A stretch of DNA of 64,000 nucleotides from NCBI RefSeq assembly GCF_014696675.1, contig NZ_JACJQN010000001.1:558001-622000 (forward strand), written 5' to 3'. The notes beneath the pieces are model-generated. The model searched no databases. It was given only the letters and a program-made list of their open reading frames with translations, and was not told the origin of the DNA. The stretch is from Phormidium tenue FACHB-1052. Its GTDB lineage: Bacteria > Cyanobacteriota > Cyanobacteriia > Phormidesmidales > Phormidesmidaceae. A program made the translations under genes and the position numbers. Below, in pieces: positions 2,497 to 64,000 of the stretch (the stretch's first letter is position 1; every line of letters begins with the position of its first letter).

Positions 2497-3057
2497 ATGC
2501 CCGCAAAACTTGACCAGTCGCCGCTTCAGCGCCGTCGGACTACCCTGGCAAGGTGGGCAATGGCGATCGCTGCGGGGGTTGCGATCGTCGGCTGCCGACC
2601 CAGCCCGCCGCCCCAAAGCGAAACCCTAACCCCTGCCCCAGCGTCCCCCACCGACTCTGCCCCTGAAACCCCAGCCGCACAGCCCACTCAAGCCCCGGCT
2701 CCGACCCCAGCCGCCCCAGCCAACACGCCCACCGCCACCCTGCCCAATACCCTAATCAGAGAATGGCAGCCCCTCAGCAACGTGTTGCTCGCCTTTGGCC
2801 CCATGACCCTAACCCCTGAGCAGGTGCAGTGGAGCAGTGGACAGGTCAGCCCCTACACCTTGATCAGTACCGAGGGTGGCTATCTGCTGGAACTAGAGGC
2901 CCGCCCCAGCTTTTACGACACCCAAAACCGCTACATCAAGCTGATTCCCAAAACCGACGCCAACACCGCCGAGTCGATTGAAGTAGCCTTTTATCCGGAT
3001 GCCACCCAGCTTCAAAACGACGAATACATCATGTATGGCGGCTACTTCGCTGAGTAG
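2497..3057 (+). CDS. Proline-rich putative lipoprotein of unknown function
   Basis: 186-residue protein beginning at the ATG at 2497, preceded by GGGAG 7 nt upstream; an upstream in-frame GTG at 2479 is less likely. A positively charged N-terminus and one hydrophobic segment end in a lipobox-like VAIVGC, with Cys at residue 33, so a lipid-anchored exported protein is expected. Residues about 35-90 are an Ala/Pro/Thr-rich linker, which suggests a flexible tether away from the membrane. The C-terminal 100 residues form a compact, mixed-composition domain (FGPMTLTPEQVQWSSGQ, IKLIPKTDANTAESIEV). I do not recognise a family. It is divergent from potA and convergent with pilQ, from which it is separated by a hairpin terminator. 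Confidence 0.75.
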   Translation: MPAKLDQSPLQRRRTTLARWAMAIAAGVAIVGCRPSPPPQSETLTPAPASPTDSAPETPAAQPTQAPAPTPAAPANTPTATLPNTLIREWQPLSNVLLAFGPMTLTPEQVQWSSGQVSPYTLISTEGGYLLELEARPSFYDTQNRYIKLIPKTDANTAESIEVAFYPDATQLQNDEYIMYGGYFAE

Positions 3058-3080
3058 TCATTCATCCTCAGCAAAAAATA

Positions 3081-3111
3081 GGGCAGATGCATCCAATCAT
3101 TGCATCTGCCC
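3081..3111. terminator. Bidirectional hairpin terminator between the lipoprotein gene and pilQ
   Basis: A perfect 11-bp stem (GGGCAGATGCA 3081-3091 with TGCATCTGCCC 3101-3111) encloses a 9-nt loop. An A-rich run precedes it (3072-3078) and a T-rich stretch follows, so it can act on both strands. It sits between two convergent genes, where such a structure is expected. Confidence 0.8.
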
Positions 3112-3190
3112 GTTTAGTTAATCGTCTTCTTTACAGAAAACCTGTGAACCTTTACCCACCCAAATAGTCAGCTCGCAGCAGGAAAATGGA

Positions 3191-5386
3191 TTATTCTTCC
3201 TGGCGACCTCTATTTTCCAAAATCTCTTGCACAGACTCACTGGGGGTGTACTGATAGCCAAAGGTCGACTGGTCTGAGTCATCTAGAATCTGGGGTGTCA
3301 GCAGCACAATCAGTTCTCGGCGCTGGTTGTCGGTCACCGTGCTGCGGAACAACGCCCCCAGAATGGGAATATCGCCCAAAATGGGAATTTTGTTGACGCT
3401 GTTGCGCTCCGACTCTTGAATGATGCCGGAAAGCAGCAGGGTTTGACCATCGCGAATGCGCACCTGACCCGAGCTAATTTGGCGCTCTGATAGCAAGAAA
3501 AACGTACCAGCGTCACTGGTGAAGCTGTCGGTCGGGGCCGAAATACTAGGAGCTACCGAGAGCGACACAAAGCCATTGTCATCAATGCGATCGACGTCAA
3601 TTTGCAAAATCAAGCCAGCCGGCTCAGTTTCAATTTCTAAGGTAGTCAAGGTTCCCGTCTCGGTCACCTCAATGGTTTGCGTCAGCTCAGTCACCACATC
3701 TTGAGTGAGCTGAACTGTAGCCGTCTGCCCCTCCTGCACAATCAAAGTGGGGTCAGTAATGATCTTACCGTTGCCGTTTTGCACCGTTCCTAGCAGCTGA
3801 GCCAAGAAATTGCCGGAGGTATTATTGGCTCCAGGGCCACCTAGCGGACGCGGCGTGATCGGTGTGCCCGTGGGAGTGCCCTGGCTTATAGGATTAGGCG
3901 TACCACCATCGCCAATATTCAGAATACCGAGACCGCCAGAGCTAAGCACCCCAAACAGCCCGTTCTGGAATGAGAAGCTGGTACCAAAGGCATCTAGGGA
4001 GTTGAGATCAATGTCAATAACTCTGACGTTGACCGCAACCTGCCGTCTCCGCAAGTCAATGCGGGTGAGTTGCTCGGTGGCAATAGCGATCAGATCAGCC
4101 CGACCGACGAGGGTTACTGAGTTAGTGCGCTCATCAGCAACTACCTGCAACCCGCGAAGAATTCCTTGGCTATCTTCATAGTCGACCCGGCTCACCTCGA
4201 TCTGTTCAACCGTTGAGGTCTGGGTTTCGGTAATTGGGGGAGTTCCCTCTGCAACGGTCACAGCATTGACGTTGGTGACCAAGCGCTCTCGACTGACGGC
4301 GCTCTCGGCACCCAGGGCCACCAGGAAGTTGGTGGCCACAGCAGCATCAACTTGATTCAGCCGTAGAGTTCTAGCAGAGACATTCTGGGCCGAAACCGGC
4401 AGCGTCGGGCCAACATAGACACTGCGGCCTACCCGGTTAGCCTGCAAACCAGTGACTCGCAGAACGTGGTTAAACACATCCTGCACAGATTCATTCTCAA
4501 TATCCAGACTGACGGGCGGGCCATCAGCACTGCCACCTTCTGCCCCACCTTCAGTCCCGCCCCCAGCGGGGGTAAACACCAGGTTGAGGCCTGCCGCCCG
4601 CGCTAGCAGCGACAAAACCTCGCGGGCTGGGGCATCCCGCAGCAGCAGCTTGGGAATTCGCTCGTTGCTGCCCAAGTTGATGTTGTTAAAGGAGGGCACT
4701 CCCTCCGCCACGGCAATATCGCCAATTGGAGGAGCTACAGCCCGGGGCAAAAAGGGAGGCGTTTGCTGCACCTGAGGGCGAGGCACAGGGGTGCCATCAA
4801 TGGTGACTTCAGGGCTGGGTACCAGCACATCGGGACTGGCCGGAGTGGGCACCTCTGGAGCAGCTTCGGGAGCCGGTTCCGGGGCCGGCTCTGGGGCGGC
4901 TTGGGCGACAGTAGGAGGAGTGGCCGGAGCAGGTACGGTTTCGATCTCAGCAGGCACGGGGGTAGGAGCCTGGGCGGTCTCACCATCGTTGCGAATCGAC
5001 AGCACCACCTGGTTGTCGCTGGATTCTACGGCCCCAGTGGGGGGCTGGCTGGTGCCACTGACGGTGATGCGCACGCTGTTAGCGTCGAGGGGCACCACAG
5101 ATACCTGGCTGATGCCGGGGGCCGGGTTAGCCTGGGTAAAGCTACCACCGTCGGGTAGGTTGAGCTGGGCGCGGGTGATGTCGGCCTGTAGGGTGTTGCC
5201 CTGGCTGACGGTAAAGATGCTGCTGTTGTCGCCTCCCTGGGTGTCAAACACCAGGTCTAACCCTGTGGCGGTGGGGTTGAGGCGGACATTGGTAATGCTG
5301 GTTACTGAGGCCAGGCCAGGCTGGGCGGCTAGGGCAACGAGGGTGCTGCCAAGTAGAAAGGGTTGCAGGTTCATTAGACGGTTCAC
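3191..5386 (-). CDS. pilQ: Type IV pilus secretin PilQ with AMIN domain
   Basis: Outer-membrane secretin through which the type IV pilus is extruded; needed for motility and natural competence in cyanobacteria. The 731-residue protein has a signal peptide (residues about 1-26), an AMIN domain (about 27-120) for peptidoglycan or envelope targeting, a Pro/Ala/Glu-rich linker (about 130-220), an N-terminal secretin domain (around 247-320, LLLRDAPAREVLSLLARAAG), and a C-terminal secretin domain ending with the hallmark NKIPILGDIPILGALF. The GTG at 5386 is taken as the start because GGAGGAG lies 6 nt upstream; an ATG four codons in is the alternative. It is the last gene of the pilM-N-O-Q operon, 109 bp after pilO. 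Confidence 0.95.
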   Translation of the reverse strand: MNRLMNLQPFLLGSTLVALAAQPGLASVTSITNVRLNPTATGLDLVFDTQGGDNSSIFTVSQGNTLQADITRAQLNLPDGGSFTQANPAPGISQVSVVPLDANSVRITVSGTSQPPTGAVESSDNQVVLSIRNDGETAQAPTPVPAEIETVPAPATPPTVAQAAPEPAPEPAPEAAPEVPTPASPDVLVPSPEVTIDGTPVPRPQVQQTPPFLPRAVAPPIGDIAVAEGVPSFNNINLGSNERIPKLLLRDAPAREVLSLLARAAGLNLVFTPAGGGTEGGAEGGSADGPPVSLDIENESVQDVFNHVLRVTGLQANRVGRSVYVGPTLPVSAQNVSARTLRLNQVDAAVATNFLVALGAESAVSRERLVTNVNAVTVAEGTPPITETQTSTVEQIEVSRVDYEDSQGILRGLQVVADERTNSVTLVGRADLIAIATEQLTRIDLRRRQVAVNVRVIDIDLNSLDAFGTSFSFQNGLFGVLSSGGLGILNIGDGGTPNPISQGTPTGTPITPRPLGGPGANNTSGNFLAQLLGTVQNGNGKIITDPTLIVQEGQTATVQLTQDVVTELTQTIEVTETGTLTTLEIETEPAGLILQIDVDRIDDNGFVSLSVAPSISAPTDSFTSDAGTFFLLSERQISSGQVRIRDGQTLLLSGIIQESERNSVNKIPILGDIPILGALFRSTVTDNQRRELIVLLTPQILDDSDQSTFGYQYTPSESVQEILENRGRQEE

Positions 5387-5495
5387 GGTTCACTCCTCCA
5401 TCACAGATGCGGCTGGGCCGCGCGGGGTTTGACTAGGCTAGGTGGGTAGATTAGGCCACTGGGGTGGCAGTAGCAACGGGGTTTGAAGGGCTGGA

Positions 5496-6404
5496 CTAGC
5501 CACCCTCAGGCGGAGGCGCACCTTCGACGGGGGCTTCACCCTCGGCGGGAGCAGGCGGCGGGGGCGGCTCGGGCGGAACGCTGGGGTCGCCTATGGGCAC
5601 GAGCACTTCGAGGGTGAAGTCGGTGAGCAGCAATCGGCTAATACCGAGCAGTTCCTCTTCGGTGGCGTCAGCTGGCGGCGGCGCAATGCTCTGCTGCATA
5701 TCTTTAATAATGATCAGCGGCTCTAGGCGCTCAATGTTGCGCATAATGCTGAGCGTCTGCGGGAACAGCGCCTGCATCGATACATCGACAGTGACGCGCT
5801 CTAGTTTGCCGTTGAGTTCTGGGGCGCGGTCAGTAACTGGCTCTGGTGGGCTGGGGTTAAACCGCAGCAGCTCAGAAGAAAAGAGCTGTTTTTGTACTTG
5901 GGGAGTAGCAGCAAACTGAGTCTTGACCCGCTGAATCTGCTCTCGGGTAAGCCCTAGGGCCGCGAGTTGGGCATTGTCGAGGGTAGCGGGGTTGGCCCGC
6001 AGCACATCGGCGATCGCAGCGTTGCTGTTTTGAATCTGCTGGTTGATGTCGAGCAGCAGGGTATCGAGGGTTTGGGAACCACCCAATAGGCTGTAAACGC
6101 CCACCCGTTGCTCTAAAGCCGAATTTAGCTCAGCCTGTAGCGCAGCGCGGTCTTGAAGACTGGCCCGCTGCTGGTCAACCTGAGCCTGCTTTTCGGCGAC
6201 CTGGATCTCCAGGGCATTTTTTTCCGCCACTACAGGCTTGACTAAAAAGTTGTACAGGGCAAAGGATCCGGCCAGACCCAGCACTGCCAGAGCAATACCC
6301 TGCAACTTGGGGGTGAAGTCAATACCAAAAACGTTGGGGTAAGTAGGGCCGACGTCTAAGGCCTGATTATCGTCGGCGGGAAGGAAATCACCCGATGCGG
6401 TCAT
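5496..6404 (-). CDS. pilO: Type IV pilus inner-membrane alignment protein PilO
   Basis: 302-residue inner-membrane protein that pairs with PilN to form the periplasmic alignment subcomplex between the PilM/PilC platform and the PilQ secretin. A cytoplasmic N-terminus of about 35 residues is followed by one membrane segment (about 36-56, IALAVLGLAGSFALYNFLV), a coiled-coil-prone Gln/Ala/Glu stretch (about 60-110) and a periplasmic ferredoxin-like region. The last 30 residues are unusually rich in Pro and Glu. The start codon overlaps the pilN stop (ATGA at 6401-6404) and is preceded by AAGGAG, indicating translational coupling. No pilP gene is present, as is usual in cyanobacteria. Confidence 0.92.
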   Translation of the reverse strand: MTASGDFLPADDNQALDVGPTYPNVFGIDFTPKLQGIALAVLGLAGSFALYNFLVKPVVAEKNALEIQVAEKQAQVDQQRASLQDRAALQAELNSALEQRVGVYSLLGGSQTLDTLLLDINQQIQNSNAAIADVLRANPATLDNAQLAALGLTREQIQRVKTQFAATPQVQKQLFSSELLRFNPSPPEPVTDRAPELNGKLERVTVDVSMQALFPQTLSIMRNIERLEPLIIIKDMQQSIAPPPADATEEELLGISRLLLTDFTLEVLVPIGDPSVPPEPPPPPAPAEGEAPVEGAPPPEGG

Positions 6405-27351: not shown

Positions 27352-30300
27352 CTAGTCTCTGGATTGGGAGAGCCAGACTCGTAGTAGTGACAGCAGTTGC
27401 TCCATTTCGACCGGTTTCGTAATGTAATCGGTTGCACCTGCTTCCAGACATTTTTCGCGATCGCCTTTCATGGCTTTAGCCGTGAGGGCAATCATCGGTA
27501 AATCGGCAAACTGACTAATCTGTCGGATTGCCCCCATGGTTTCATAGCCGTCCATTCCAGGCATCATAATATCCATCAGTACTACATCAACATCAGGATT
27601 TGCCTGCAAAACACTGATGCCATCTTGGCCGCTTTCGGCGTAGAGCACCTGCATTTGCTGACGCTCTAACAGGCTGGTAAGGGCAAAGATGTTGCGAACA
27701 TCATCATCTACAATCAGCACTTTTTTGTCTGCCAGAATCGGATCGTTCCGCCGTAGTTGTTCTAGCATCGACCGTTGGTGATCAGGTAGGTTTGCCTGAA
27801 TCCGGTGGAGGAACAGACTGGTTTCGTCGAGCAGGCGTTCGGGCGATCGCGCATCCTTGATGATCAAGGTGTCAGACAGGCGGTGCAGTTCTGTTTCTTC
27901 CTGAGTGGTTAGATCTTTGCCCGTGTAGACGATGATTGGCAGGCGACCTAGGTTCGGTTCGCGTTTGATTTGTTCGAGTAGCTCAAAATCCTTAGCATCG
28001 GGCAGCATCAGATCGAGAACTACACAATCAAACTGTTCGGCGCGAATAGCGGCTAGGGTTTCGGCAGCGGTGGCCACTGCCGTGATGCTGACATCGCTAT
28101 TTCCAATCAAATCGACGATGCTTTGGCGTTGCTGGTCGTCGTCTTCTACCACTAGCAAGCTCTTGACTAACCGTTCCACAAACTCTTTCATGCTGGCCAG
28201 GGCATTGAGCAGAGATTCACTGCTGACGGGTTTTTGGAGGTAGGCGATCGCGCCCTGTCGCAAGCTGCGACCCTGCCCATCTTCTACGGTCATGATGTGA
28301 ACCGGAATGTGGCGAGTATCAGGGTCGTGCTTGAGATAGTTGAGCACGGTCCAACCGTCCAAAACGGGTAACCGGATGTCAAGCATGATGGCGGAGGGTT
28401 GAAATTCTCGCGCCATCTGGAGTCCCACATCTCCCCGGGTGGCAACTAAGCCTTTGAAGCCGTGTTCCCGCGACAGATCGAGCAAGATGCGGGCGAAGTT
28501 AACATCATCTTCAATGATGAGCAAAGAGCGATCGTCGGGTTGAATCGAAACGCGATCGTCTTCCAGCATCGGATCAACTGAAAAGGTACCCACCTGAGTT
28601 GCGGTGACAGAAATAGCATCTCGGATTCCCCCTGACGGGGCGGGTGACGCGACTTCTGGGGGGCGCAGGGCGATCGTCGAGTTAACCGGGTAAGCCGTGG
28701 AGCCCGCTCTGCGAGTTTCTACCGGCATGGTTCTCTGCTCCCTACCGTCCCATCTGCCTGTCTCCCCGTTCTCCTGGCGCTCCACATAGGTCAATGGCAA
28801 ATATAGGGTAAACGTACTGCCCTGACCCAGTTCACTCATCAGGCGAATTTCACCTCCCAAAAGCTGGGCGATTTCCCGGCTAATCGACAGGCCTAAACCG
28901 GTGCCACCATAGCGGCGGCTCGTTGTTCCATCTTCCTGCTGGAAGGCTTCAAAGATAATCTGCTGCTTCTCGGGAGCAATGCCGATGCCCGTATCGGTCA
29001 CCGCAAAGGCAATTACTTGATCCGCCTGATTTAATCTGGCTTTCTCTAGACTCCAGCCTTGGGTAACAACGCTAATTTCTAACTCGACTTGTCCCCGCTC
29101 TGTGAACTTGAAGGCGTTTGCCAGCAGGTTTTTTAACACCTGTTGCAGCCGCTTGGCATCGGTGTAGAGGGTGCGTGGTAGTTGCTCGCTGAAGCGCATG
29201 GAAAAATCGAGTTTGCGATCGATGGCAACCTGGCGAAAGGTACGCTCTAGATGAACTTGCAGATCGGCGAACAGGATCGGCTCGGCATTGACTGAAATGG
29301 TGCCGGATTCGATCTTCGCCAGATCGAGGATGTCGTTAATCAGCCCTAGCAGGTCATTGCCCGCGGAGTAAATGGTCTGAGAATATTCCACCTGCTTGTG
29401 GGTCAAGTTATTCTCGCTGTTGTCAGACAGCAGTCGCGCCAGAATCAGCAAGCTGTTCAGCGGAGTTCGGAGTTCGTGGGACATGTTTGCCAGAAACTCA
29501 GACTTGTATTTAGATGTGAGCGCTAGCTGTTCAGCTTTCTCTTCCAAAGACAATCGCGCCTGCTCAATTTCGCTGTTTTTGCGCTCCACTTCCCTGTTCT
29601 GCTTCGCCAATAGTTCGGCTTTTTCTTGTAGTTCTTCGTTGGTCCGTTGTAGTTGCTCTTGCTGGCTCTTGAGTAAGTCTTCTGACGCTTTCAAGGATTG
29701 CGCCTGCTGCTCCAAACGCCGGTTGGTGTCGGTGAGCTCAGTTTGCTGGCCCTGCATTTCTTCTGCCAGAGATTGGGACTGTTTGAGCAGTTCCTCGGTT
29801 CGCATACTGGCGGCGATCGTGTTGAGAACGATCGCGATACTTTCGGTCAATTGGTCAAAGAAGGTGAGGTGAATTTCATTAAAGCGGTTGAAGGACGCGA
29901 GTTCGACTACTGCCGTCACTTGCCCCTCAAACAGAACGGGCAGCACGACCACATTCATCGGCGAAGCTTCACCCAGGCCAGAATTGATTTTGATGTAGTC
30001 TGAGGGCACCTCAGTGACCAGAATTCGCTCTTTCTCCAGGGCACATTGTCCGACCAAGCCTTCGCCGAGATAGAAGCGATTGGCTAGACTCTTGCGCTCT
30101 CGATAGGCGTAGGTGCTGAGCAATTTCAGGATTGGTGGATGGATCTCGCTGGTTTCTAGCAGGTAGAATACGCCGTGTTGAGCGGATACCAGAGGAGCCA
30201 GTTCGGACAAGATCAGCTTGGAAACCGTTTCCAGGTCGCGCTGACCCTGCAACATCCGCGTAAATTTTGCCAGGTTGGTTTTGAGCCAGTCTTGCTCGAT

Positions 30301-33300
30301 GTTTTTCTGGGTGGTTTCGCGCAGGTTGGCAATCATCTGGTTGACGTTGTCTTTCAGAATGGCAACTTCGCCCTGGGCCTCAACCGCAATCACCCGCGTC
30401 AAATCGCCCTTGGTCACGGCGGTTGCCACTTCGGCGATCGCGCGTACCTGAGTGGTCAAGTTGGCCGCCAGTTCATTCACGTTGTCGGTCAAATCACGCC
30501 AGGTGCCTGATGCCCCCGGCACTTTCGCCTGACCACCCAGTTTTCCTTCAATCCCTACTTCCCGGGCTACGGTTGTCACCTGATCGGCGAAGGTTGCCAG
30601 CGTGTCGATCATCTCGTTGATCGTGTCGGCCAGGGTTTCAATTTCCCCTTTGGCATCCAGCATCAGCTTCTGTTTTAGGTTGCCGTTGGCGACGGCAGTC
30701 ACGACCTTAGCGATGCCTCGAACCTGCGCCGTCAGGTTGCCGGCCATGGAGTTGACGTTATCGGTCAGATCTTTCCAGATACCGGCTACGCCAACTACCT
30801 GGGCTTGACCGCCCAGTTTGCCTTCGGTGCCCACTTCGCGCGCCACCCGCGTTACCTCGGAGGCAAAGGAACTCAGCTGATCCACCATCGTGTTGACGGT
30901 GTTTTTCAGTTCAAAAATCTCACCGCGCACATCTACGGTAATTTTCTTGGACAGGTCGCCGTTGGCGATCGCGGTTGAGACCTCGGCAATGTTCCGCACC
31001 TGCGCCGTCAGGTTGCCGGCCATCGAGTTTACCGAGTCGGTCAGGTCTTTCCAGGTGCCGGCAACCCCAGACACCTGCGCCTGTACACCCAGTTTGCCTT
31101 CGGTGCCCACCTCCCGCGCCACCCGCGTTACCTCAGAGGCAAAGGAGTTGAGCTGATCCACCATGATGTTGATGGTGCTTTTTAGGTCAAGAATCTCACC
31201 TTTGACATCGACCGTGATTTTCTTGGAGAGATCGCCGTTCGCCACCGCCGTTGTGACTTCGGCAATGTTCCGCACCTGCGCCGTCAAACTACCCGCCATG
31301 AAGTTTACCGAGTCGGTCAGATCTTTCCAGGTGCCCGCCACCCCAGGCACCTCTGCCTGGACGCCCAACTTCCCTTCGGCGCCGACTTCCCGCGCCACCC
31401 GCGTCACCTCCGAGGCAAAGGAATTCAACTGATCCACCATCGTATTGACGGTGTTTTTCAGCTCCAAGATTTCGCCCTTAACATCCACCGTGATTTTCTT
31501 GGACAAGTCGCCGTTGGCCACAGCGGTTGTCACTGCGGCGATGTTCCGCACCTGGGCCGTCAAACTGCCGGCCATGAAGTTGACGGAATCGGTTAGATCT
31601 TTCCAGGTGCCAGCCACGCCGCGGACATCAGCCTGCACACCCAGCTTGCCTTCGGCACCCACTTCTCGGGCCACCCGCGTTACCTCAGAGGCAAAGGAGC
31701 TGAGCTGATCCACCATGATGTTGATGGTGTTTTTCAGCTCCAAGATTTCACCTTTCACCTGCACGGTAATCTTCTTGGACAGGTCACCGTTGGCGATCGC
31801 CGTTGCCACGTCAGCAATGTTTCGCACCTGCCCGGTGAGGTTGCCTGCCATCGAGTTCACATTGTCGGTCAAATCCTTCCAGGTGCCGGCAACGCCAGGA
31901 ACTTCCGCCTGCACGCCCAGTTTCCCTTCCGTTCCCACTTCCCGTGCGACCCGCGTTACCTCAGAGGCAAAGGAACTGAGTTGATCCACCATCGTATTGA
32001 TCGTGTTCTTCAGTTCCAGAATTTCACCTTTGACATCCACCGTGATTTTCTTGGACAAATCGCCGTTGGCCACAGCGGTTGTCACCTCGGCAATATTCCG
32101 CACCTGCGCTGTCAGGTTGCCCGCCATCGAGTTCACGGAATCGGTCAAATCCTTCCAGGTGCCAGCCACCCCGCGCACCTCGGCCTGGACGCCCAGTTTC
32201 CCTTCAGTGCCCACCTCCCGCGCCACCCGCGTCACCTCCGAGGCAAAGGAGTTGAGTTGATCCACCATGATGTTGATAGTGCTTTTCAGGTCGAGGATTT
32301 CGCCTTTTACGTCTACCGTAATTTTTTTGGAAAGATCGCCATTGGCCACAGCGGTGGTCACTTCGGCAATATTCCGCACCTGCGCCGTCAAACTACCCGC
32401 CATGAAGTTTACTGAGTCAGTCAAATCCTTCCAGGTGCCAGCAACGCCACGCACTTGCGCCTGCCCGCCCAGTTTGCCATCGGCTCCCACTTCCCGCGCT
32501 ACCCGCGTCACCTCAGAGGCAAAGGAGTTCAACTGATCCACCATTGTGTTGACGGTGTTTTTCAGCTCCAGAATTTCACCTTTGACATCGACCGTGATTT
32601 TGCGGGACAGGTCACCATTGGCGATCGCCGTTGCCACTTCAGCAATGTTTCGCACCTGCCCGGTCAAATTGCCCGCCATCAGGTTTACGTTGTCCGTCAG
32701 ATCTTTCCAGGTGCCAGCAACGCCAGGCACTTCCGCCTGCACGCCCAGCTTTCCTTCGGTGCCCACTTCCCGCGCCACCCGCGTTACCTCAGAGGCAAAG
32801 GAATTCAGCTGATCCACCATCGTGTTGACGGTGTTTTTCAGCTCCAGAATTTCACCTTTGACATCGACCGTAATTTTGCGGGACAGGTCACCGTTGGCGA
32901 TCGCCGTTGCCACTTCGGCAATGTTTCGCACCTGTCCGGTCAAGTTACCGGCCATGAAGTTTACCGAATCGGTCAGGTCTTTCCAGGTGCCCGCCACGCC
33001 GCGCACCTCGGCCTGGCCGCCCAGCTTACCCTCAGCGCCCACTTCCCGCGCCACCCGCGTCACCTCAGAGGCAAAGGAGTTGAGTTGATCCACCATTGTG
33101 TTGATGGTGCTTTTCAGGTCAAGAATTTCGCCTTTAACATCCACCGTAATTTTCTTGGACAAATCACCGTTTGCCACAGCGGTCGTCACTTCGGCAATGT
33201 TTCGCACCTGCGCCGTCAGGTTCCCCGCCATCGAGTTCACGGAATCCGTCAGGTCTTTCCAGGTGCCAGCTACCCCAGGCACCTGCGCCTGCACACCCAA

Positions 33301-34092
33301 CTTTCCTTCGGTTCCCACTTCCCGCGCCACCCGCGTCACCTCAGAGGCGAAGGAGTTGAGCTGATCCACCATGATGTTGATGGTGCTTTTCAGGTCAAGA
33401 ATTTCGCCTTTGACATCGACCGTAATTTTCTTGGAGAGGTCGCCGTTGGCCACAGCGGTCGTCACTTCGGCAATGTTCCGTACCTGCGCCGTCAGGTTCC
33501 CCGCCATCGAGTTCACGTTATCGGTCAAATCTTTCCAGGTGCCAGCCACCCCTTTGACTTCGGCCTGCACGCCCAGTTTCCCCTCGGTTCCCACTTCCCG
33601 CGCCACTCGCGTCACCTCAGAAGCAAAGGACTGCAGCTGGGCCACCATTGTGTTGACAATTTGTGCCGTTTGCAGAAACTCCCCTTGCAGCGATCGCCCT
33701 TCGATCTCCGTTGCGATCGCCTGCGACAGGTCACCATTGGCTACGGATCGGATTACCCGTGTAATCGCCGCCATGGGCTGCACTAAATCCACAATCAGCG
33801 TGTTGATTGACCCTTCACAGGCTTTCCACGACCCTTTTGCTCCACCTAACGAAGCCCGTTCGTTCGTCTTGCCCTCTTTCCCCACCACTCCGCTGATCCG
33901 CTCTAGCTCCGTCGCGATCTGCTCGTTCTTGTCAATGATGTCATTGAGCGTATCAGCAACTTTTCCGGCGATCCCCGTCTGATCAACCGGCATTCGCACT
34001 GAAAAATTTCCTTTCTTCACTTCGGTCAAAACTTTAAGCAGTTGCTTCAGGTCGAAGCTATTGGTCTCAGTGAGGGTTTGAGCGGTTGTCAT
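27352..34092 (-). CDS. Giant soluble hybrid histidine kinase with twelve tandem HAMP-type units, GAF and three receivers
   Basis: 2246-residue protein without transmembrane segments. N-terminal HAMP-like helices lie at about residues 15-56 and 103-155. Twelve tandem units of exactly 92 residues follow (about 156-1259), each with AREVG-x-EGKLG, a short linker ([10 protein letters not shown]), and a HAMP core ([17 protein letters not shown]). Next come a GAF domain (about 1275-1430), a coiled coil (1430-1530), HisKA with His1539 (MSHELRTP), HATPase (about 1645-1770, [14 protein letters not shown]), and REC1 (Asp1905), REC2 (Asp2027), REC3 (Asp2174). The architecture is that of group III (Nik1/Os-1-like) kinases, which sense osmotic or envelope stress through poly-HAMP arrays; those commonly have about five to seven repeats. 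Followed by a second hybrid kinase gene. Confidence 0.93.
30316..33627 (-). repeat. Twelve tandem 276-bp repeats encoding HAMP-type units
   Basis: The gene region encoding residues 156-1259 consists of twelve in-frame copies of exactly 276 bp. Units 1-10 (upstream end, high coordinates) are very similar in DNA as well as protein; units 11 and 12 (about 30316-30867) are diverged. Variants come in two interchangeable blocks, [22 protein letters not shown] and [22 protein letters not shown] being split among units in a mosaic order, which indicates duplication and gene conversion. Confidence 0.9.
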
Positions 34093-59227: not shown

Positions 59228-60850
59228 ATGAACATTCTTTTGGTTTATCCCCGCTTTCCTCAAAGCTTTTGGTCGTTTGACAAAACGCTAGAGCTAGTTG
59301 GGCTGAAGGCGCAACTGCCCCCCTTAGGACTAGTGACCGTAGCGGCAATTTTGCCCCAAACTTGGGACTACAAGCTGGTAGACCGCAACGTGCGGGAAGT
59401 GCATGAAGACGAGTGGCGCTGGGCCGACATTGTCATCATCTCGGCGATGATCGTCCACCGCGTAGACTTTTTAGACGCCGTACAGACCGCTAAGCGCTAC
59501 GGCAAGCTAGTGGCGGTGGGTGGCCCCTACCCCACCGCTATCCCCCAAGAATCTGAAGCCGCTGGGGCCGACTTTTTAATTTTGGACGAAGGGGAAATCA
59601 CCCTGCCCATGTTTGTTGAGGCAGTGGAACGGGGCGACCAGCGCGGCACTTTCCGCTCCGGCGGTGAAAAGCCCGATGTCACCGGCACCCCCGTGCCCCG
59701 CTACGACCTGCTCGAGATGGATGCCTACGCCGAGATGTCGGTGCAGTTCTCGCGCGGCTGCCCCTTCCAGTGCGAATTTTGCGACATCATTGTGCTCTAC
59801 GGTCGCAAGCCCCGCACCAAAGCCCCCGAGCAGCTACTGGCCGAGCTGCAATGCCTCTACGACCTGGGCTGGCGGCGCAGCATCTTCATGGTCGATGACA
59901 ACTTCATCGGCAACAAGCGCAACGTCAAACTCCTACTCAAGGCCATGAAACCCTGGATGGAGGAGCACGGTTATCCCTTCTCCTTTGCCACTGAGGCCTC
60001 TGTGGATCTGGCTCAAGATCCAGAGCTGATGCAGATGATGGTCGACTGCAACTTCGGCACCGTCTTTTTGGGCATCGAAACCCCCGACGACGACAGCCTC
60101 AACATGACCAAAAAATTCCAGAACATGCGCGACCCCCTTTCGGAGTCGGTGATCTCCATTGCCCAAGCGGGGCTGCGGGTGATGGCCGGGCTGATCGTCG
60201 GCTTCGACGGCGAAAAATCTGGGGCCGGTCGGCGCATCTACGAATTTGTGGAGCAGACCGCCATTCCCACCGCGCTGGTGAGCATGCTGCAAGCCTTGCC
60301 CGACACGGCCCTGTCTCACCGTTTAGAGAAAGAAGGCCGCCTGCTGAGCAAAAGCGCCGACATCAACCAGACCACCCTGATGAACTTTGTGCCCACCCGG
60401 CCCATCGAAGAAATCACCGAAGAGTACATCCAGGTGTTTTGGGATCTCTACGACCCGCTGACGGTGCTCAACCGCACGTTTCGCCACTTCTTGATGCTGG
60501 GCGAGGCCCAAAAGCGCAACTACAAAAACCGCACCGTCTCCGCTGGCGCTCCCGACATCAACTGGGTCACCATTCGCGCCTTTTTGATTGTGGTGTGGCG
60601 GCAGGGCGTGCTGCGCAAGACCCGTCTGCGATTTTGGATCAACCTGGCCATCATGCTATGGCGCTATCCAGCGGTAGCTGCCAACTACATATCGGTGTGT
60701 GCCCAGGCTGAGCACTTCATCGACTTCCGCCAGCTTGTGCGGCAGAACATTGAGGAACAGCTGGCGGCTTACCTAGAAGCTAAGCAACTCACCGATCAGA
60801 CAGCGGCAGCCGCCGCATCGGTTGAATCTGTTGCTGTGCCTGTCAGCTAG
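59228..60850 (+). CDS. B12-binding-domain radical SAM protein
   Basis: 540-residue protein. The N-terminal domain (about 1-145) has the cobalamin-binding Rossmann-like fold (NILLVYPRFPQSFWSFDKTL, AVGGPYPTA). The radical SAM core has the cluster motif CX3CX2C, Cys178, Cys182 and Cys185 (RGCPFQCEFCD), then VDDNFIGNKRNV. The C-terminal third belongs to the DUF4070-type region common in this group. It uses SAM and cobalamin for a methylation or rearrangement. Related enzymes include the hopanoid C-2 methylase HpnP, but the sequence alone does not settle the substrate. A terminator follows at 60889-60923. Confidence 0.87.
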   Translation: MNILLVYPRFPQSFWSFDKTLELVGLKAQLPPLGLVTVAAILPQTWDYKLVDRNVREVHEDEWRWADIVIISAMIVHRVDFLDAVQTAKRYGKLVAVGGPYPTAIPQESEAAGADFLILDEGEITLPMFVEAVERGDQRGTFRSGGEKPDVTGTPVPRYDLLEMDAYAEMSVQFSRGCPFQCEFCDIIVLYGRKPRTKAPEQLLAELQCLYDLGWRRSIFMVDDNFIGNKRNVKLLLKAMKPWMEEHGYPFSFATEASVDLAQDPELMQMMVDCNFGTVFLGIETPDDDSLNMTKKFQNMRDPLSESVISIAQAGLRVMAGLIVGFDGEKSGAGRRIYEFVEQTAIPTALVSMLQALPDTALSHRLEKEGRLLSKSADINQTTLMNFVPTRPIEEITEEYIQVFWDLYDPLTVLNRTFRHFLMLGEAQKRNYKNRTVSAGAPDINWVTIRAFLIVVWRQGVLRKTRLRFWINLAIMLWRYPAVAANYISVCAQAEHFIDFRQLVRQNIEEQLAAYLEAKQLTDQTAAAAASVESVAVPVS

Positions 60851-61486: not shown

Positions 61487-64000
61487 ATGGTTCAAGAACT
61501 TCCCCGTACCCGGTCACAGGGGCCATTCCCTGAGGCAGCTCCGGCGGCGTTTCCTGTGTTTTATCGCACCTACAGCCGTCGGGGCGAGGTGGTAGAGGGG
61601 CAGCGCGAAACCTGGGATCAGGTGTGCGATCGCACCCTAGCGGGCCTGATTGAACTCGGCAACCTCACAGACGAAGAAGCCGCCCTACTCAACCGCATGC
61701 AGCGCCAAGTCAAGGCACTACCTTCTGGCCGCTGGCTGTGGGTGGGCGGCACCGACTGGAGCAAGCAGCCCGAGAACTTTTCTGGAGCCTACAACTGCAC
61801 CAGCACCGACGTGGTTGACTGGCGCGCCTTCGGCCTGATGATGGATCTGGCCATGATGGGCTGCGGCACCGGGGCAATTCTCGAACCCAAGTACATCAAT
61901 CAAATCCCTGTCATTCGCAACCGCCTAATCGTCACCATGGCGGGCGACATCGGCGAAACTCCCGTGGCCGATCGCCGTGAAGTTACCGACGTTGCGATCG
62001 AGGGCAACCAGGTGGCTATTCGCGTCGGCGACAGCCGCCAGGGCTGGGTGAAGTCCTACGAAACGCTGCTTGAGCTGTCTACCGATGAGCGCTTCACTGG
62101 GGAAGTCCAGGTCACCATCGACCTGCGCGACGTGCGCCCCGCAGGCGAAAAGCTCAAAGGCTTTGGCGGCGTGGCCAACCCCGTGCGCCTATCCCTGCTC
62201 TACGATCGCTGCGCCAGCATTCTCAACAAAGCTCTGGGTCGCCAGCTCAGCTCGGTCGAGTGCTGCCTGCTGATCGACGAAGCTGCCGCCTGCGTGGTAG
62301 CGGGCAACATTCGCCGCAGCGCGGGCATGCGCCAGTTTGACAGCAACGATGAATTGGCCGCCAGCGCCAAAGACAACCTCTGGCAGCAAGACGCCGAGGG
62401 CAACTGGCGCATCGACCCCGAGCGCGACGTGCTGCGCATGGCCAACCACACCCGCGTCTTCCACACTAAGCCCAGCCTGCAAGACTGCATCGATTCGGTC
62501 CGCAAGCAGTTTTATTCGGGCGAAGGCGCAATCCAGTGGGCGGGGGAAGCGAAAAAGCGAGCGGGCGGAGACGATCGCTACGGCTTGAATCCGTGCGTCA
62601 CGGCTGACACCTGGGTACATACTGGCGATGGGCCACGGCAGGTAAAAGACTTAATAGGTCAACAGCACAGCACTTACGTCAACGGAGAGCTATTTAGCAC
62701 TACCCCTGAAGGCTTTTTCTACTCGGGAACCAAGTCAGTCCTGAAGCTCGTGACCCAGGAAGGTCAGACCCTGCGACTAACCGGCAACCATCGCGTGCTG
62801 AAGGTGACAGCCCAAACTCAAAAAGCTCAGTATACGGAATGGGTCGCTGCGGACACCCTTCAGCCTGGCGATCGCGTCATGTTGCACAACCATCGGGACT
62901 TGCAGCCATGGGACGGCCCAGGTAATGCTGAATCTGGTTGGCTGTTGGGAAACCTAGTGGGCGATGGCAGCTTGGCCGAAACCCAGTGGAATGACGCGGC
63001 GCTCCTTAGATTCTGGGGCGATTCCCAGGAGGAAATGAGTGAGCATGCGATCGCTCTATTGACCACTAACGTCGGCTATGAGCGTCGAACAGCCTCGGCG
63101 CACTACCACACCCAACTTAAGCATCGAGTGGTTAACTCTGCTGGCCTGGCTAGATTAGCAGCTAAATTTGGCATTGCCCCACGACAAAAAGCCGTTACAA
63201 CTGCGATTGAACAGGGTAGTTATGAGTTCTACCGGGGCTTTTTGCGAGGCCTTTTTGACGCCGACGGTAGTGTTCAGGGGCATCAGACCAAAGGTGTCAG
63301 CGTTCGCCTGGCCCAAAGTAACCTGACTAACCTAGAAGCCGTGCAACGGATGCTAGGTCGCCTGGGCATTGTAGCGACGATTGACCAAGAGCGACGGCCC
63401 GAGGGCCATCGGCTGCTGCCCGATACCAATCGTGAGCCCGCCTCCTACTTCTGCCAATCCCAGCATGAGTTAGTGATTGCCAATGATAACCTGCAAGTCT
63501 TTGAGAGCCTAGTTGGTTTTCGGGAACCATTCAAATCTGCCAGGCTAACCGACTTACTTGCCAACTACAAACGCCGCCCCAACCGGGAACGGTTCACGGC
63601 GACTGTAGCTACCATCGTGCCCGATGGCGTAGAAGCGGTTTACGACTGCACCGTACCGGGGCCAAATCGATTTGATGCCAATGGCTTTGTCGCTCACAAC
63701 TGTGGTGAGATCCTGGGGGCCAACTTCCACTGCAATCTGGCGGAAGTACACCTCAACCAGCTCGATCCGACGAACTTAAAGGATCAGGAAGACGCCTTCA
63801 CCGCAGCGGCCCTGTCTGTAGCGGTGCTGCTCAACCACCAGTTCAACGAGCCCCGCTACCAGAAGTCGCGCCTGGAAGACCCGATCGTCGGTGTCTCCTT
63901 CACCGGTCTGTTTGACTTCTTCGTAATTGCCTTTGGGGTCGAGTGGCTGCGCTGGTGGGAAGCCGGTCGCCCCAACACCATGCAGGGGCTTGACTTCAAA
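61487..64000 (+). CDS. nrdJ: Class II (adenosylcobalamin-dependent) ribonucleotide reductase with intein, 3' end outside window
   Basis: Converts ribonucleotides to deoxyribonucleotides using B12 radical chemistry; the oxygen-independent class common in cyanobacteria. Starts at the ATG at 61487 and is still open at the window edge (838 codons seen). The N-terminal part shows ENFSGAYNCTSTDV with the redox Cys, MMGCGTGAILEPKY, and GNIRRSAGMRQFDSND. At 62594 the frame enters an intein, which ends at 63700; the extein resumes with the catalytic-site segment CGEILGANFHCNLAEV. Joining NP with CGEI restores the highly conserved NPCGEI motif, proof that the insertion sits in the active site. Confidence 0.95.
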   Translation, partial: MVQELPRTRSQGPFPEAAPAAFPVFYRTYSRRGEVVEGQRETWDQVCDRTLAGLIELGNLTDEEAALLNRMQRQVKALPSGRWLWVGGTDWSKQPENFSGAYNCTSTDVVDWRAFGLMMDLAMMGCGTGAILEPKYINQIPVIRNRLIVTMAGDIGETPVADRREVTDVAIEGNQVAIRVGDSRQGWVKSYETLLELSTDERFTGEVQVTIDLRDVRPAGEKLKGFGGVANPVRLSLLYDRCASILNKALGRQLSSVECCLLIDEAAACVVAGNIRRSAGMRQFDSNDELAASAKDNLWQQDAEGNWRIDPERDVLRMANHTRVFHTKPSLQDCIDSVRKQFYSGEGAIQWAGEAKKRAGGDDRYGLNPCVTADTWVHTGDGPRQVKDLIGQQHSTYVNGELFSTTPEGFFYSGTKSVLKLVTQEGQTLRLTGNHRVLKVTAQTQKAQYTEWVAADTLQPGDRVMLHNHRDLQPWDGPGNAESGWLLGNLVGDGSLAETQWNDAALLRFWGDSQEEMSEHAIALLTTNVGYERRTASAHYHTQLKHRVVNSAGLARLAAKFGIAPRQKAVTTAIEQGSYEFYRGFLRGLFDADGSVQGHQTKGVSVRLAQSNLTNLEAVQRMLGRLGIVATIDQERRPEGHRLLPDTNREPASYFCQSQHELVIANDNLQVFESLVGFREPFKSARLTDLLANYKRRPNRERFTATVATIVPDGVEAVYDCTVPGPNRFDANGFVAHNCGEILGANFHCNLAEVHLNQLDPTNLKDQEDAFTAAALSVAVLLNHQFNEPRYQKSRLEDPIVGVSFTGLFDFFVIAFGVEWLRWWEAGRPNTMQGLDFK
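62594..63700 (+). mobile_element. Intein with LAGLIDADG homing endonuclease inside nrdJ
   Basis: 369-residue insert starting at Cys1 (62594-62596, CVTADTWVHTGDG) and ending with Val-Ala-His-Asn (Asn369 at 63698-63700), followed by the nucleophilic Cys+1 of the extein (TGT 63701). Block B is seen in LTGNHRVLKVT, block F/G in VYDCTVPGPNRF and FVAHN. Between them are two LAGLIDADG-type motifs, LLGNLVGDGSL and FLRGLFDADGSV, which define a DOD homing endonuclease. All splicing residues are intact, so self-splicing and homing are both plausible. Confidence 0.94.

Follow-up and report, generated by a model that had tools for sequence, protein, structure and literature searches.

The 64,000-nucleotide stretch of Phormidium tenue FACHB-1052 DNA analyzed here (the window) ends within nrdJ, the gene for a B12-dependent ribonucleotide reductase (RNR), and the active-site motif of this gene is interrupted by an intein. 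Does the intein spread among nrdJ genes, was it simply inherited, is it decaying, or does it serve its host as a switch? Its sequence, conservation, predicted fold and distribution make it highly probable that the element is a full-length LAGLIDADG intein of class 1 that moves horizontally, located directly before the radical cysteine of what is apparently the only RNR of the genome; splicing, DNA cleavage and homing are the activities predicted for it.

The nrdJ ORF starts at position 61487, and the whole gene (1488–4778 in L002) encodes 1,096 residues. As computed from the joined flanks, the product without the intein is 727 residues in size; the extein scored 432 bits (cut-off 340) against TIGR02505, the equivalog model of adenosylcobalamin-dependent ribonucleoside-triphosphate reductase. 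At E 0.001, the only PDB relative of the 727-residue enzyme is 1L1L, the Lactobacillus leichmannii enzyme. Cys370 and Cys380 of the spliced enzyme align with C408 and C419 of 1L1L, respectively, as found by manual counting along the alignment. C408 is, as we take it, the thiyl-radical cysteine of the L. leichmannii RNR, and C419 is presumably one of its reducing pair. With its TIGR02505 score above the cut-off, and with cysteines where the L. leichmannii enzyme has C408 and C419, the enzyme belongs to the monomeric class II RNRs (RTPR). Upstream of this B12-dependent RNR gene, at 59228–60850, the window encodes one B12-binding radical SAM protein (DUF4070). Between 60850 and 61600, no leader RNA was matched by Rfam at E up to 1. 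Further away, at 27352–34092 on the minus strand, the window encodes a histidine kinase of 2,246 residues in which HAMP domains were matched twelve times, together with a GAF domain and three receiver domains of the response-regulator type.

The intein is 1,107 nt in length; its 369 codons are free of stops and in frame with the nrdJ ORF. With slashes marking the splice junctions, the protein reads RYGLNP/CVTADTWV...GFVAHN/CGEILG, and in the numbering of the spliced enzyme, the insertion separates Pro369 from Cys370. The preliminary description had placed an intact DOD intein at 62594–63700, splitting NPCGEI between Pro and Cys, with both splice junctions, the penultimate His and both LAGLIDADG motifs present. 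Its coordinates are exact to the base; the junctions LNP/C and HN/CGEI are seen, and C1, H368, N369, D124 and D224 were all found. The identification as an intein was confirmed far beyond chance. In Pfam, the element matched Intein_splicing (E 8e-10) and LAGLIDADG_3 (PF14528, E 3e-23); in NCBIfam, it matched the N-terminal region (25.1 bits, cut-off 24.5) and the C-terminal region (20.3 bits, cut-off 15.6) of inteins. All class 1 intein residues, C1, T63, H66, D351, H368, N369 and the +1 Cys, are present in the window, and the two motifs with their catalytic Asp residues, D124 and D224, are those of a LAGLIDADG (DOD) endonuclease.

The AlphaFold2 model of the intein is confident (pLDDT 92.5, pTM 0.91). 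PI-PfuI gives the best structural alignment (Z 28.8 over 327 residues, rmsd 4.1 Å), and the TliVMA intein ties with it (Z 28.0 over 316 residues); in the Foldseek order, TliVMA comes first and PI-PfuI third. The splicing half of the model aligns with the DnaB and RecA mini-inteins (Z 19–20, about 130 residues) and is thus predicted to adopt the Hint fold. The conserved splicing residues and intact endonuclease motifs support the view, already taken in the preliminary description, that the element would be competent for splicing and looks capable of homing.

Table 1. Features of the interrupted nrdJ gene and of homologous insertion sites. Positions are those of the window, except for the intron-like inserts, which are numbered within their own loci.
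Feature	Position	Strand	Basis or remark
N-extein of nrdJ, residues 1–369, ending ...RYGLNP	61487..62593	+	TIGR02505 E 3e-129; 1L1L match
Site homologous to intein site a (NIRR/S278)	62317..62318	+	filled in certain relatives; empty here
Full-length class 1 intein, 369 aa, CVTADTW...FVAHN	62594..63700	+	
Cys1 codon, nucleophile of the N-S acyl shift	62594..62596	+	sequence
Block B His66 (TGNH)	62789..62791	+	59/59 relatives
Homing endonuclease domain, residues 106–329, approximate borders	62909..63580	+	LAGLIDADG_3; model aligned to PI-PfuI, I-DmoI
LAGLIDADG motif 1, WLLGNLVGDGSL	62939..62974	+	catalytic Asp124 at 62963–62965
LAGLIDADG motif 2, RGFLRGLFDADGSVQ	63233..63277	+	catalytic Asp224 at 63263–63265
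Penultimate His368 and terminal Asn369	63695..63700	+	sequence
C-extein of nrdJ	63701..64000	+	runs on 777 bases past the window edge to the stop codon
Cys370 of the spliced enzyme, +1 splicing nucleophile, aligned with C408	63701..63703	+	1L1L alignment
Site homologous to intron-like insertion point (NPCG/EI)	63706..63707	+	filled in L075, L080, L084; empty here
Site homologous to intein site c, before Cys380 (C419 of 1L1L)	63730..63731	+	empty here
Intron-like insert of L075, 748 bases	3136–3883		
Intron-like insert of L080, 1,181 bases	3231–4411		
Intron-like insert of L084, 338 bases	3000–3337		

In the life cycle that we propose, translation would give a precursor whose RNR active site is broken. 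Cys1 would attack the carbonyl of Pro(-1), and the chain would then move onto the +1 cysteine; as judged by the 1L1L alignment, this nucleophile of splicing is the predicted catalytic cysteine of the RNR itself. Asn369, aided by His368, would cyclise, and the exteins would be joined as NPCGEI. The endonuclease domain would cut intein-free nrdJ alleles at the same site, and homing would follow when the cut allele is repaired from the intein-bearing one. Proline at position -1 is generally unfavourable for splicing, which counts against this explanation.

Inteins at the same position (site b) were found in many other genes. A total of 73 were extracted, 14 of which were duplicates, leaving 59 distinct alleles. 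T63, H66 and D351 are kept in 59/59; C1, H368 and N369 are also kept in 59/59, partly by construction, because extraction demanded Cys at position 1 and HN before Cys, Ser or Thr at the end. No such condition was set for T63, H66, D351 or the endonuclease residues. No RNR match was lost to these conditions; the seven pattern matches lacking such an end are all located outside the RNR active-site motif. Both catalytic Asp residues are kept in the window; among the 59 distinct alleles, 52 retain the first, 53 the second and 51 both. In a survey of the class, whose 38 carriers were found by the N-terminal DNA pattern alone, 32 keep both. Because both Asp residues persist at these frequencies, the endonuclease appears to be maintained in most alleles and to be decaying in some, such as L028, L031, L112 and L128.

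Compared to the nearest allele, L071, the intein of the window has a dN of 0.044 and a dS of 0.66; for the endonuclease part, the values are 0.056 and 0.81, respectively. In both cases dN is low relative to dS, and the intein and its endonuclease part are therefore under purifying selection. We consider it quite improbable that the element is decaying, with splicing intact and the endonuclease inactivated through changes outside the motifs. Such decay does take place in the family, where 8 of the 59 distinct alleles are without at least one endonuclease Asp, but the window allele is full length, holds both Asp residues and shows a dN/dS of about 0.07 against L071 in the endonuclease part. In another pair of alleles, L020 and L021, the endonuclease parts are almost identical at silent sites (dS 0.01), compared to 0.18 for the splicing parts and 0.34 for the exteins; this looks like a recent conversion of the endonuclease part alone.

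The distribution of the intein is patchy at every level covered. At the family level, 58 of the 63 genomes matched the spliced 120-residue junction; the site is uninterrupted in 42, filled by intein b in 13 and by an intron-like insert in 3. One of the 13 carriers, G050, contains the last 178 intein residues only, where its contig ends. Within the genus (26 genomes), 19 sites are uninterrupted, 6 contain the intein and 1 contains an intron-like insert. The class survey covered 195 cyanobacterial genomes: the intein DNA pattern was present in 44, the exact empty site in 108 and neither pattern in 49. After inspection, 38 were RNR inteins, 32 at LNP/CGEI and 6 at TNP/C in another RNR type; G168, G226, G175, G199, G205 and the second G181 match, which belong to another protein (YDTWG), and G180, which is without an intein, were removed before counting.

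The same frame recurs in related loci of GTDB genomes, where the intein is flanked by NP/ and /CGE in 29 of 31 cases; the two exceptions are L029, truncated by the end of its contig, and L030, which does not occupy an RNR site. Most of the framed loci (24/29) are GLNP/CGEI of the monomeric RNR. The host RNR of the remaining five gave no tblastn alignment with the monomeric enzyme; L023 (labelled Aphanocapsa) and L025 (Gloeobacterales) read TNP/CGEI, and L026, L027 and L032 (proteobacteria) read TNP/CGEQ. We infer that these five hosts are dimeric NrdJ. At 4488–5957, L030 (Neobacillus drentensis) contains a 489-codon ORF whose endonuclease domain is 43% identical to that of the window intein; the ORF has neither an N-terminal Cys nor a C-terminal His-Asn, and may be an intein-derived endonuclease that stands on its own.

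To follow the history of the element, extein and intein trees were compared. The family extein tree has 49 rows; it was built with the site columns removed by a quick search with SH-aLRT only, L054 and L078 were left out as too short, and L057/L085 and L067/L086 each represent the same genome. The window falls in a supported 7-row clade, the other six rows of which are empty, and the carrier label changes 11 times for 12 carriers, a count made without a shuffle control. Among 24 carriers, the family of the window is one clade for the extein (98/96), whereas its monophyly is rejected for the intein, with a log-likelihood 47.9 lower and a p-AU of 0.0023; the AU test used the 24 of the 59 alleles with most extein sequence, and the intein tree contains one long branch (L028). 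Because the extein keeps the family together and the intein rejects this, we conclude that the intein has moved horizontally within the history of the family.

The intein could instead have been inherited vertically from an old ancestor, with repeated exact loss or recombination with empty alleles, and with an endonuclease that is intact and no longer spreading in the genus. Between the window and L071, the dS of the intein equals that of the extein (0.66 and 0.67, respectively), which fits a common carrier followed by later losses, and the six genus inteins share one 10-row fork of the intein tree together with four others. However, the window and L003 differ by a dS of 1.59 (near saturation) in the intein and of 0.53 in the extein, and the Cyanobium/Synechococcus inteins L012 and L013 belong to a supported 9-row set holding the genus inteins, although their exteins are among the most distant. 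Together with the rejected family monophyly and the frequent label changes, these observations render purely vertical descent rather unlikely. Empty sites in relatives, combined with an intein history unlike that of the host gene, are the marks of a mobile intein, and we retain horizontal movement as the preferred reading. The preliminary description had regarded a fresh or mobile state as possible. Mobility is borne out by the patchy distribution and the AU test; freshness is plausible, as the window is surrounded by empty relatives in the tree, but even the closest intein sampled differs from that of the window by a dS of 0.66. The simplest reading is a gain in the window's own lineage, losses in the relatives being the other option.

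In the nrdJ gene of the window, GC3 amounts to 0.572 for the intein, compared to 0.768 for the extein; codon composition was rejected as proof of recent arrival, since the same direction was observed in 25 of 28 carriers (mean difference 0.086). At codons 365–371, the window differs from its nearest empty allele, L041, at 7 bases, and 9 of 721 such stretches (itself included) are as different; when the six clade mates are taken together, 6 of 721 reach the same difference, the highest of them starting at codon 355 in a variable stretch. These values are suggestive only of a possible co-conversion of the flanks, and no donor flank was found among the 59 alleles. A donor was not found either: the peptide patterns used to look for a phage vehicle matched no IMG/VR stretch, and all phage and plasmid matches are below 60% in identity. 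Class II RNRs resembling the N-extein are present in cyanophages, so that a phage route is conceivable.

The preliminary description also stated that DNA replication depends on correct splicing, and that the site is a potential regulatory switch. The genome is 99.99% complete (the tool's figure) and gave one match to the N-extein, so no second RTPR was found; a profile search of the genome gave no match to PF02867 (RNR large chain), PF00268 (small subunit) or PF13597 (NrdD). PF02867 missed the divergent NrdJ of the window as well and is blind to a second RTPR, which the N-extein search covers. Because no second RNR was found, splicing is probably essential for the supply of DNA precursors. The dependence stated in the preliminary description is thus reasonable.

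A further step would be needed for the intein to act as a conditional switch that gates RNR activity, for example in response to redox or cobalamin state. An intact active site is impossible in the precursor, and the enzyme is the only RNR found. In Aquifex RNR R2, an intein that separates two metal ligands is reported to raise the iron content and aid iron loading (PMC8772380), and conditional splicing has been reported for other inteins (PMC6195587, PMC5790916). Conserved presence would be expected of a needed regulator, yet only 6 of the 26 genus genomes carry the intein; with 19 uninterrupted sites in the genus and six empty clade mates, there is no conserved dependence. The intein is not a required regulator, because it is missing from most of the genus; its patchy distribution argues against a conserved regulatory switch. 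No regulatory feature was identified in the element, and we regard such a switch as very improbable indeed.

The intein shares its surroundings with other elements. In 9 of the 59 distinct carriers of intein b, a second intein (intein c) starts with HCVAG at the C419 position, leaving ten host residues (CGEIxGxxFH) between the two. The tandem is whole in L070/L003, L073/L006, L074/L005, L024 and L031, whereas only the start of intein c is reached in L090, L107, L112 and L126. In the five of nine loci that reach its end, intein c is 336 residues in size and ends with GTLTGQ/C, with Gly-Gln and without His-Asn. LAGLIDADG_3 is the only Pfam match of intein c of L003.

The inserts of L075, L080 and L084 are located between NPCG and EI (codons 371/372), six bases from the intein site. 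Read in the frame of the 5' flank, they contain 13, 8 and 9 stops, respectively, and their flanks read NPCG and EI. The L080 insert encodes, at 3423–4358, a protein of 311 residues that resembles phage endonuclease I and contains a NUMOD3 motif; neither match reaches its Pfam cut-off. Rfam gave no match for the three inserts at gathering level, and L084 stayed unmatched even when E was raised to 1; because of this, the inserts are termed intron-like here. In the same three loci, nrdJ is also broken upstream: the first frame hits a stop, and another frame (33 to 44 open codons) leads into NPCG. In L008, the loop at this upstream place is longer, and the frame reads through. The gene of the three loci may consist of two parts; alternatively, it may contain another intervening sequence.

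We tentatively propose that different elements compete for insertion into the active-site loop of RNR. In cyanobacterial nrdJ, intein b (+1 nucleophile at the C408 position), intein c (+1 nucleophile at the C419 position, the second active-site cysteine) and the intron-like element insert at three distinct points within 30 bases, and inteins related to that of the window occupy the position of intein b in class I, monomeric class II and, as the five loci above suggest, dimeric class II enzymes. A splicing nucleophile that is also the catalytic Cys would make inexact removal lethal, and one occupant may block the homing of the others.

Distant relatives point to the same position. A search with the intein gave 26 matches, and all four RNR inteins examined among them, in SPbeta BnrdE (NC_001884), an uncultured large phage (LR756511), Brochothrix phage A9 (NC_015253) and a Miltoncostaea plasmid, are inserted before the corresponding motif cysteine at SNL/CSE or SNL/CTE and aligned over all 369 residues. 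Some of the other matches are in other proteins, for example in a tape measure gene. Different from the window intein, to which they are 24–27% identical, these four inteins are found in class I-type RNRs and have Leu instead of Pro at -1. PI-PfuI (1DQ3) and TliVMA (7QSS), the best structural matches, share 19% identity with the window intein and are longer, with 454 and 432 residues, respectively. PI-PfuI is, we assume, the Pyrococcus furiosus RIR1-1 intein, and the insertion sites of both presumably differ from that of the window intein. A profile of 28 relatives finds 1DQ3, with residues 116–275 aligned on 141–297 (E 0.005). The match to NF006207 (PRK08332), a model of B12-dependent RNR, crosses the intein end into the C-extein, with residues 413–758 on 943–1262 of the model, which suggests that the model contains an intein at the same site, though a distant one.

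Full-length (type II) inteins in cyanobacterial nrdJ are reported for Thermosynechococcus (PMC9403480). They resemble the window intein in gene, kind of element and strain-to-strain patchiness. A review cites a group I intron in the RNR gene of Nostoc punctiforme and inteins in cyanobacterial RNR genes (PMC12702839), and intein sites are on average close to active sites according to another study (PMC3359363). The accessible literature, which excludes most subscription papers, contains no naming of the +1 residue as the class II RNR radical cysteine and no description of the b/c tandem. Full-length inteins in cyanobacterial nrdJ are therefore known from print, and the window intein is a well-preserved member of a known, patchy family.

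The intein is ordinary for its family; the setting is the useful part. The genome has one detectable RNR, presence and absence are sharply divided within one genus, near relatives are natural empty-site recipients, and a single catalytic loop accommodates two inteins and an intron-like element. This setting allows direct tests of homing, of whether neighbouring elements block each other, and of what it costs the host to have an RNR that depends on splicing. Other inteins were noticed in the genome of the window (G000). On contig C36, at 163.5–166.7 kb (L034–L037, L039), a gene reading like DnaB helicase contains two inteins; on contig C1, at about 806 kb (L038), a gene reading like a DnaX clamp-loader contains one, which has a long middle part with no LAGLIDADG motif seen by eye.
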